A stretch of DNA of 64,000 nucleotides from Mariniblastus sp. Lineage in GTDB: Bacteria; Planctomycetota; Planctomycetia; Pirellulales; Pirellulaceae. This document shows, piece after piece, positions 56,944 through 60,498 of the stretch. A program made the position numbers and the translations under genes. Below the pieces are notes generated by a model that saw only the letters and a program-made list of their open reading frames with translations, ran no database searches and was not told the DNA's origin. Position 1 is the stretch's first letter; each line of letters starts with the position of its first letter. The stretch lies in contig JAKVBF010000002.1 of assembly GCA_022447555.1 (NCBI GenBank), positions 186,001 to 250,000 of the forward strand, in the 5' to 3' direction.

Positions 56944-57753
56944 TTAGTTTTTTTCAAAACCTTTGGCAAATGATTTATCTGAAAAAACGAGGCCCGATTT
57001 GGCTGCGTCATTCGCTTGACCGTCAACCTTGTTGACACAGTTTCCGCAACACAATTTCACCTCAATACCGCTGACCGACACCACCTGCTCGTCATCCATA
57101 TCGCCACCGGACAAAGGACAAGCCGTTTGCTTGTATTGACCTGTGGCAACCAGTTGCTGGTTGGCCTTATCGGCGAACTTTTCGGGATTCTTCGTAAATT
57201 TCCCCACGCAACCTTTGCAACAAAAGAATACTTTACCGCCCTTATAGTCGACCGCGTATTTGGCTTTCACGCCTTTGGCAGGCATCAACATGCACTGAAC
57301 GCCCGCAAGGTCGATCTTCTGTTTTAGTTTGAAGGCTCTGGAAAACGACTTTTGGTTAAAAACCATATTAGCCTGGGCAGCCAAGTCCGTGGCGGATTCA
57401 ACCTTTTCCATCTCTTTTTTGTTACAGAAACAAACCTTCACACCACCTACGTTTGTCGACGCGTCTTCAGCACACTTGCCGCCAAACGGACAGGTAACCT
57501 GAACATACTGTCCCGTTAGCGCGAGTTGATGATTGGCTTTGACCGTAAATTTATTTGCATCTGCATCAAACTTGGCTTTGCAGTTACCGCAACAAAAATA
57601 GACCTTGCCGTCAAGATAATTAGAACTTTTCCCGGCCTTGGCTGCTGCGTTACCATTAACGATGCATTTAACCCCCGTCAAATCTGGCCCGTCTTGCGGG
57701 GCCGCCTCTAACGCCGTACCCGCCATCATTAGCATTGCAATCAACAACTTCAT
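56944..57753 (-). CDS. Secreted Cys-rich protein with two YHS/TRASH-like repeats
   Basis: Start ATG 57753 with GGAGAG upstream gives a signal peptide (KLLIAMLMMAGTALEAAPQ). The mature 250 residues consist of two copies of a ~120-residue module: C-N/M-start, then KVYFCCGNCKAKFDADANKF or KVFFCCKGCVGKFTKNPEKF, then GQY...CPxxGG, then VKVCFCNKKEMEKV or IEVKLCCGNCVNKV. The KVxFCCxxCxxKF segments resemble YHS or TRASH-type metal-binding Cys motifs. No haem site. A metal-binding or redox-buffer role in the periplasm is plausible. Confidence 0.78.
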   Translation of the reverse strand: MKLLIAMLMMAGTALEAAPQDGPDLTGVKCIVNGNAAAKAGKSSNYLDGKVYFCCGNCKAKFDADANKFTVKANHQLALTGQYVQVTCPFGGKCAEDASTNVGGVKVCFCNKKEMEKVESATDLAAQANMVFNQKSFSRAFKLKQKIDLAGVQCMLMPAKGVKAKYAVDYKGGKVFFCCKGCVGKFTKNPEKFADKANQQLVATGQYKQTACPLSGGDMDDEQVVSVSGIEVKLCCGNCVNKVDGQANDAAKSGLVFSDKSFAKGFEKN

Positions 57754-57878
57754 TTCTGCTCTCCGTTTGTTTGTATATAGTCTGGTCTCTCTGTGACACG
57801 CCAACACCCCCTTATCTGACACCACACGGCCATTTTGTCAACTGAAAATCAGACAACCAAAAATCTCTGATGGGCGAC

Positions 57879-59412: not shown

Positions 59413-60498
59413 CTAGGGAGTGGGTCTGCCGTGGTTCGAGAGATCGACTTCGTGCCCGAGTTCGGCCAATAAAGCCGTAATCGCTTGATCCATTCCCGGC
59501 CCCCGGACATTTTTATAGCGAATCCTTCCTTCGGCATCCAAAACGTAAATGGTCGGCCAGCTGGTCACACCCCAATCTGTGGAGATGGGGCCGCCTGTCC
59601 CCTGAGGTCCGTTCCAAAAACTGCGCCAGGTAATGTTCTTTTCCTTGACGACCTCTCGCAACCCCTCGAGATCGCGATCACTATTAATCCCAATTAAGGC
59701 AAACGGTTTATCGGCTAGTTGCTTTACGAGCGACCGCTCGTGGGGGTACATGGCCCGACAAGGAGGTCACCAATCACCCCAGAAATCAAGCACTACCACC
59801 TTGCCCCGATAATCACTTAGCTTGAATGCCACACCATCCAGATCGCTTCCAGAGATCTCGGGCGCGATCTTGCCAATCGCAAATTTCATTTTGGCCAACG
59901 CCATTTTGGCCCGCCCTACTAATTGAGGATTGGCACCGTACTGTTCGATGACCATCTCATATAGATCTCTAATTTCCTGTTCCTTCCGATCCCCGGCTGG
60001 AGCGGTGGCCATGTGTGAGGCCAGGGCGCAGGCAGCCATGCCACGGACTGATTCATGGGGGGATTTTTCCATGATCGTCGTGAGTTGATCCTTCGAGCGT
60101 TCACTGAACGGCTGCCGCTGAATCACCTCGCATATCTGAGCAATCGCCGATTGATCAATGTGCTTGTCTAACAGTTGATCAACCGCCTCTGCTTTTTGTT
60201 GAGGGTCTTTGGACATGACAATGACCCAGTTTAGCGCGCCGAAAGCAATCCGATCTTTTGGATGCTCCTTGGCGAGATTCAGAAATTTCTGGGGATAAAT
60301 TGAAACGTCGTTCGCATCATTTCGGACAGCCACCGCATAGTCATCATTCAGTTTTTCGAATTGTTCGGCCGGCGTTAACGCCACGACCACTTCGGCGGAT
60401 GAAGAAGAACCATCTCCATTAGACATTGCCTCCGGCTCTCCCGAATAACAACCCACCAACAAAAGGGGCGACAGGATCAAAAACCCAAAACACCGCAT
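59413..60498 (-). CDS. Thioredoxin-fold lipoprotein with in-frame TGA in the CxxC motif (candidate selenoprotein)
   Basis: One frame from ATG 60498 (GGGAG seven bases upstream) to the stop at 59413, interrupted only by TGA at 59769-59767. The lipobox is FLILSPLLLVGCYSGE (Cys at about 17). A helical region (about 40-190, ...AEQFEKLNDDYAVAVRNDAN) precedes a TlpA/AhpC-like thioredoxin fold from KLSDYRGKVVVLDFWGDW. Homologues read GDWCxPCR at this point; here it is GDW-TGA-PPCRAMYPHERSLV, so codon 244 replaces the first active-site Cys. The frame continues normally (ALIGINSDRDLEGLREVVKE, WGVTSWPTIYVLDAEGRIR). Without recoding, the protein ends before its active site. A UxxC selenoprotein is the simplest reading, with nonsense mutation as the alternative. 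Confidence 0.72.
59726..59741 (-). promoter_or_regulatory. Candidate bacterial SECIS-like hairpin
   Basis: Read on the coding (minus) strand: ACGAGC-GGUC-GCUCGU, a perfect 6-bp stem with a GGUC loop. The loop starts 31 nt after the in-frame UGA. Bacterial SECIS elements place a small G-containing apical loop roughly 16-37 nt after the UGA, and the fdhF element of E. coli has GGUC in its loop. The lower stem is not obvious. The assignment is from the sequence alone. Confidence 0.55.

Follow-up and report, generated by a model that had tools for sequence, protein, structure and literature searches.

The window analysed here is a 64,000-nucleotide stretch of a Mariniblastus sp. contig (GCA_022447555.1, JAKVBF010000002.1, positions 186,001 to 250,000), and it contains a minus-strand gene whose frame, beginning at 60498, is interrupted by a single internal TGA at codon 244 (Table 1). 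In the frame translation this codon falls in the context ...VVVLDFWGDW-U-PPCRAMYPHERSLV..., the start of a thioredoxin-type motif, where it takes the place of the leading Cys in a WCxxC motif of TlpA/ResA type and is followed by the rest of the fold. Specifically, 117 sense codons lie 3′ of the TGA before a TAG stop, and the read-through C-terminal part scores above the gathering threshold for both AhpC-TSA (PF00578, 66.2 bits; cut-off 26) and Redoxin (PF08534, 62.5 bits; cut-off 26.6). Bases and translation therefore bear out what a sequence-only reading of this DNA had claimed, namely an in-frame TGA at this codon and an open frame beyond it with a thioredoxin-fold C-terminal half. A table-11 ORF list splits the gene into a 244-residue ORF running from TTG 60501, one codon upstream, up to the TGA, and a 112-residue ORF from ATG 59751, 3′ of the TGA. 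As the standard code cuts the gene in this way, gene callers probably misannotate the family as truncated proteins. Two ORFs downstream of the gene, at 56944-57825 on the minus strand, an ORF of 293 residues carries repeats of a CC-x-x-C motif (VYFCCGNCKAKF and the like).

Table 1. Features of the predicted selenoprotein gene (window coordinates) and two further UGA genes of the same genome.
Feature	Position	Strand	Remarks
Predicted selenoprotein gene	59413..60498	minus	361 residues with UGA as Sec (U244), TAG stop; Pfam AhpC-TSA 66.2 bits, residues 208-328
Putative signal peptide with lipobox-like LVGC (residues 14-17), ending at Cys17	60448..60498	minus	read by eye
N-terminal domain, nine helices (residues 43-204)	59887..60372	minus	AlphaFold2 model mb3c2ed1960d5, mean pLDDT 86.3
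TlpA/ResA-like thioredoxin-fold domain (residues 209-347)	59458..59874	minus	Pfam, AlphaFold2 model, structure matches
Sec codon TGA (codon 244)	59767..59769	minus	first position of WUxxC motif; TGA in 101/122 aligned frames, Cys in 21
Cys247 codon TGT, presumed resolving Cys	59758..59760	minus	Cys codon in 117/122 aligned frames, TGA in 5 (UxxU)
SECIS hairpin ACGAGC-GGUC-GCUCGU, 6-bp stem	59726..59741	minus	within codons H-E-R-S-L-V; all six pairs in 89/97 Sec loci, 0/21 Cys loci
Deiodinase-like gene L269	G000:C4 about 168834-169220	minus	UGA gene
Deiodinase-like gene L270	G000:C3 about 108978-109367	minus	UGA gene

With respect to architecture, an AlphaFold2 model built on a 21-row alignment consists of a helical N-terminal domain and a thioredoxin-fold domain, the best PDB match of the latter being 4grf (E 3.1e-9, TM 0.82 by target length). 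Among solved structures, the best matches mostly bear the names of ResA/TlpA-type thiol:disulfide oxidoreductases or of thioredoxin family proteins. Normalised by query length, the Foldseek TM of the full two-domain model falls to ~0.34, because the helical N-terminal domain is unmatched; the match to 4yod covers 292 columns, but at an rmsd of 12.6. Going by the lipobox-like LVGC, the protein may be anchored to the membrane on its non-cytoplasmic side, and many relatives have N-termini that look exported by eye.

Homologues of the protein were found at E<=1e-30 in 73 of 199 genomes of the same taxonomic family, with ~150 matches when summed from the results table. The comparison took in 117 loci, 109 from these genomes and eight from the window's own, the leftover matches being mostly weaker or Cys forms. 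From these, phmmer gave 124 frames (some loci overlap), of which two are cut off and 122 align over the site. TGA occupies the site in 101 of the aligned frames (97 distinct), TGC in 12 and TGT in nine, and the only further stop within 95 codons is a second TGA, three codons later, in five frames (UxxU). The sequence-only reading had proposed asking whether Cys stands at this codon in homologues and whether relatives keep the TGA, and had regarded frameshifts or other stops in the fold as evidence against it; both codon types were found, and the frames are otherwise open over these 95 codons. A sample of 294 genomes from the phylum gave matches in 61 at E<=1e-40, and 98 of the 103 matches have an internal TGA while five do not, as counted by hand on unaligned positions.

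Substitution patterns point the same way. Between the query and seven same-genus relatives, dN is 0.15-0.17 after the TGA, where synonymous sites are saturated (pS about 0.8), and 0.60-0.67 before it. Among the seven relatives themselves, the part after the TGA gives dN 0.003-0.033 and dS 0.05-0.46, with dN<dS in all 21 pairs. Judged from these rates, purifying selection acts on the part 3′ of the TGA, the reverse of the relaxed selection that had been put forward as the mark of a recent nonsense mutation.

The occurrence of the TGA form also follows that of the Sec machinery. Across the 199 genomes, selB (E<=1e-60) is present in 40 of the 43 with a TGA form versus 54 of the 156 others (Fisher p 1.7e-12, which is not that of independent trials because the genomes share ancestry), the 40 including G153, with a selB fragment under the cut-off. 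The corresponding counts are 38/43 versus 69/156 for selA, and 42/43 versus 70/156 for either gene. The three TGA genomes without selB (G095, G024 and G063) are all 78-84% complete; two of them have selA, and G063 has neither gene. Genomes with Cys forms only carry selB in 15 of 30 cases, and four of 13 same-genus genomes have selB and no family match at E<=1e-30.

In the window's own genome (4.19 Mb, 62 contigs, 97.5% complete), the full set of genes that had been suggested as a check, selA, selB, selC and selD, was found above the cut-offs: selA at 569 bits (cut-off 268), selB at 357.9 (242), selD at 273 (125) and tRNA-Sec at 68.6 (gathering 47), the last with anticodon TCA by ARAGORN. The selD (L028, G000:C3:79091-79999, minus) lies in a 733-residue frame whose N-terminal part looks oxidoreductase-like by eye; this frame has no internal stop, and the gene therefore appears to be a Cys form. 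Of the seven close copies of the protein in the genome, L004 has TGC at the site, and the query itself, L002, L003, L005, L006 and L007 all have TGA. Searched with AhpC-TSA, the genome gave 23 matches, eight with an internal TGA, and six of these eight belong to the query's family. The other two, which carry the motif T-U-P-P-F, read as deiodinase-like genes: they score 114.9 and 32.5 bits with PF00837 (cut-off 27) and 145.6 and 72.9 bits with NCBIfam deiodinase_rel, under its cut-off of 250; one of them has EF-hands, and in both a short hairpin with a G-rich loop follows the UGA. With six family copies and two deiodinase-like genes, the genome thus holds at least eight UGA-Sec candidates. The best formate dehydrogenase alpha match in the genome (237.7 of 666 bits) lies under the cut-off and has no internal stop, which suggests that selenium demand does not rest on this enzyme.

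In terms of the RNA signal, the sequence-only reading had pointed to a 6-bp stem with a GGUC loop, the loop starting 31 nt after the A of the UGA, and this element is indeed present. Folded by itself, the 20-nt hairpin has an energy of -8.7 kcal/mol, equalled by 2 of 200 shuffles. When the UGA and hairpin are folded together, the MFE structure differs and uses loop bases, and shuffles equal it in 13 of 200 cases at 58 nt and 31 of 200 at 70 nt. Because this UGA-inclusive fold is another, unexceptional structure, folding alone is weak evidence for a SECIS element. An Rfam search of the window gave no match; Rfam is not known to contain a general bSECIS family. A pattern of TGA, TGH and hairpin, derived from the selenoprotein family itself, matches once in the window versus 0.00 expected from shuffles. 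Elsewhere in the genome, three near-copies of the hairpin (two mismatches) were rejected, there being no UGA suitably placed in a long frame, and a reversed control pattern gave five matches. PMC13188914 gives limits for bSECIS elements in a figure legend (loop of 3-9 nt, stem of 4-16 bp, G in the first two loop positions, UGA spacing 16-37 nt, MFE <= -7.5), and the hairpin, with its 4-nt GGUC loop, 6 bp, spacing of 31 and -8.7 kcal/mol, falls within them.

Comparative sequence evidence lifts the hairpin above chance. The 97 distinct Sec loci behind these statistics were gathered by protein similarity and not by the hairpin pattern, and their codon choice within the hairpin is nearly frozen: Glu is GAG in 97/97 (versus 32% of Glu elsewhere in the same genes), Arg is CGG in 96/97 (versus 16%), Leu is CTC in 96/97 (versus 23%), and Ser is TCG in 90/90 (versus 17%), with Thr as ACG in all six loci that have it. 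The third base of the Val codon after this Leu, which lies outside the stem, varies freely. All six stem pairs are complete in 89 of the 97 Sec loci and in none of the 21 Cys loci, one of which has five; the Cys loci are without codon fixation at this place and have Glu instead of Ser in 12 of 21, while most Sec forms read Ser-Leu-Val after HER. At six slid in-frame positions, no locus forms all six pairs. On the 20-nt piece and at the same spacing, 87 of the 97 Sec loci lie within the stem, loop-G and energy limits; the other ten miss -7.5 kcal/mol, eight of them with five instead of six pairs. The loop is GGUC in 90 loci, GGAC in six and AGUU in one, the GGAC loops being those of six same-genus loci (L099 and L101-L105) and AGUU that of L003, a TGA paralogue in the window's genome. 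The stem varies so little that RNAalifold found almost no covariation there, an uninformative result. Many folds also contain a GGG...CCC hairpin located 3′ of the UGA and 5′ of the SECIS stem; it was dropped since its register shifts between sequences, and in the best register pairing is limited to three positions, with pairs in 75, 92 and 85% of 91 sequences.

Taken together, UGA/Cys alternation, the near-frozen hairpin, the machinery and purifying selection make the Sec decoding step well supported by comparative data, and with the selB co-occurrence they sustain the Sec insertion that had been proposed from the DNA letters. In this account the SelA/SelB/SelD/tRNA-Sec system of the cell would insert selenocysteine at UGA 244, with the hairpin 31 nt further on as its signal. 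The product would be an exported lipoprotein, with its helical N-terminal domain and TlpA/ResA-like thioredoxin domain outside the cytoplasm. Judging by the fold, Sec244 would act as the attacking low-pKa nucleophile and Cys247 would resolve the selenenylsulfide, so that the enzyme would work as a thiol:disulfide (or peroxide) reductase. We hold with high confidence that this account as a whole, a UGA read as Sec via the hairpin in a putative exported lipoprotein reductase, is the best explanation of the locus.

The alternative that survives best accepts the Sec reading and differs on function, making the protein mainly a peroxide reductase. Although the best Pfam match, AhpC-TSA, would fit such a role, we consider it unlikely, as the WUxxC motif is that of ResA/TlpA, as against the TxxU of Sec peroxiredoxins (PMC13188914), and the names of the closest solved relatives mostly speak for thiol:disulfide exchange or the thioredoxin family. 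Reading of the UGA as another amino acid (e.g. Trp), or unspecific readthrough, is very improbable: UGA also serves as a stop codon in this genome (it closes the L007 frame), homologues without the TGA have Cys instead in 21/21 cases, the hairpin is fixed in TGA forms only, and TGA accompanies selB. A recent nonsense mutation or sequencing error in a broken TlpA has still less to recommend it and can practically be discounted. An internal TGA is the usual sign of a pseudogene, and one record of the pattern scan described below (L149, a distant UxxU form) retains both TGA and hairpin yet runs into a stop 39 codons beyond the TGA; against this, the TGA stands at the same codon in 101 of 122 aligned frames, in 43 genomes, the 95 codons that follow are free of other stops (UxxU excepted), and selection 3′ of the TGA is purifying. 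Just as scarcely credible are two products, one ending at the UGA and a second of 112 residues starting at ATG 59751 right after it, since the Met at +6, found in 80/97 Sec loci, is equally common in the stop-less Cys forms (17/21), the two active-site residues would be separated, and the selB association and fixed hairpin would be left unexplained.

Beyond these genomes, a scan of public genomes for the UGA plus hairpin, whose figures are lower bounds and not frequencies, gave at least 121 matches in at least 118 stretches. Among the matches listed, all but L207 and L230, which were set aside as chance, sit by eye in frames of the query's family, several of which run off the end of the sequence. 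Going by their record titles, the 116 listed family stretches comprise 87 from Planctomycetota, 17 from Verrucomicrobiota, seven with no phylum given, two from Bacillota (one assembly) and one each from Pseudomonadota, Myxococcota and Melainabacteria; the last few may be misbinned or transferred. A quick tree (147 columns, 212 rows), omitting L207, L230, exact repeats and short-frame rows including L149, was read only for the query's nearest row and for a single UxxU clade; its Sec/Cys ratio is biased because 94 of the rows came from the pattern scan. The nearest row is L216, also from a Mariniblastus sp. (SH-aLRT 88).

The UxxU genes have UGA at both active-site positions and the same hairpin. 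They comprise L124-L128 from the family genomes and, among the pattern-scan matches listed, L149, L154, L174, L184, L198, L222, L223 and L251; 11 distinct rows, from planctomycetes and verrucomicrobia, form one clade (SH-aLRT 100). Their two UGAs, 9 nt from each other, precede the hairpin loop by 31 and 22 nt, and as both distances lie within 16-37 nt, one hairpin could serve both. The active site would then carry two selenocysteines decoded via a single element. We lean slightly towards the broader view that one near-invariant hairpin has been carried through Planctomycetota and Verrucomicrobiota, partly dictating the protein sequence and serving both UGAs of the UxxU forms.

What is distinctive in the query's family is its wide spread in the phylum, its multiple copies, a hairpin held in common with Verrucomicrobiota, and the UxxU clade. 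Paralogues with the fixed hairpin beside Cys paralogues without it constitute a natural experiment on the requirements of SelB and on the constraint that an RNA element within a gene places on the protein. UxxC redoxin/TlpA selenoproteins are of a known kind; the family, its spread and its near-fixed hairpin appear under-described.

Among known systems, ResA, TlpA and DsbE have Cys at the first active-site position. The query is like them in fold and active-site place (4nmu for ResA, 1jfu for TlpA and 3kh7 for DsbE among the solved matches, and the Foldseek results), whereas its helical N-terminal domain lies outside these structure matches, and it scores under the cut-offs of NCBIfam ResA, DsbE and TlpA (ResA NF002854, 63.5 of 170 bits). 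With NCBIfam NF041054 (ResA-like WAxxUGC) and NF053656 (TUGYCR) it shares a thioredoxin fold and Sec in an active-site motif, but the motif is another one and the scores, 28.2 of 300 and 18.8 of 100 bits, are far under the curated cut-offs.

The sequence-only reading had further held the family to be, as far as known to it, undescribed as a planctomycete selenoprotein lineage, a claim that stands in part. A literature search, mostly of papers available without subscription and with the supplementary candidate tables of PMC4807772 outside its scope, turned up no account of the family in planctomycetes: no paper emerged that links planctomycetes with both selenocysteine and TlpA, PMC5029168 and PMC12013277 gave no match to the terms sought, and planctomycet-, pirellul- and verrucomicrob- are absent from the main text of PMC13188914. 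Planctomycete selenoproteins as such are already in print, in that PMC4807772 describes planctomycetes P1 and P2 with Sec machinery and selenoproteins. The window's genome resembles P1 and P2 in phylum, full Sec machinery and in-frame UGA genes, and differs in that the section on P1 and P2 names only fdhA and fmdB.

The further claim that UxxC thioredoxin-like selenoproteins are known in bacteria agrees with Table 1 of PMC13188914, which contains a Prx-like thiol:disulfide oxidoreductase family (PF00578, UxxC/UxxU), a thiol-disulfide isomerase-like family (cd02966, UxxC) and a redoxin family (PF08534, UxxC). The query's family is like these in its Pfam matches (PF00578 and PF08534), in the UxxC motif and in the presence of UxxU forms. 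It may overlap with one of them; going by their descriptions, what sets it apart is a helical N-terminal domain, one near-fixed hairpin and six TGA copies in the window's genome.
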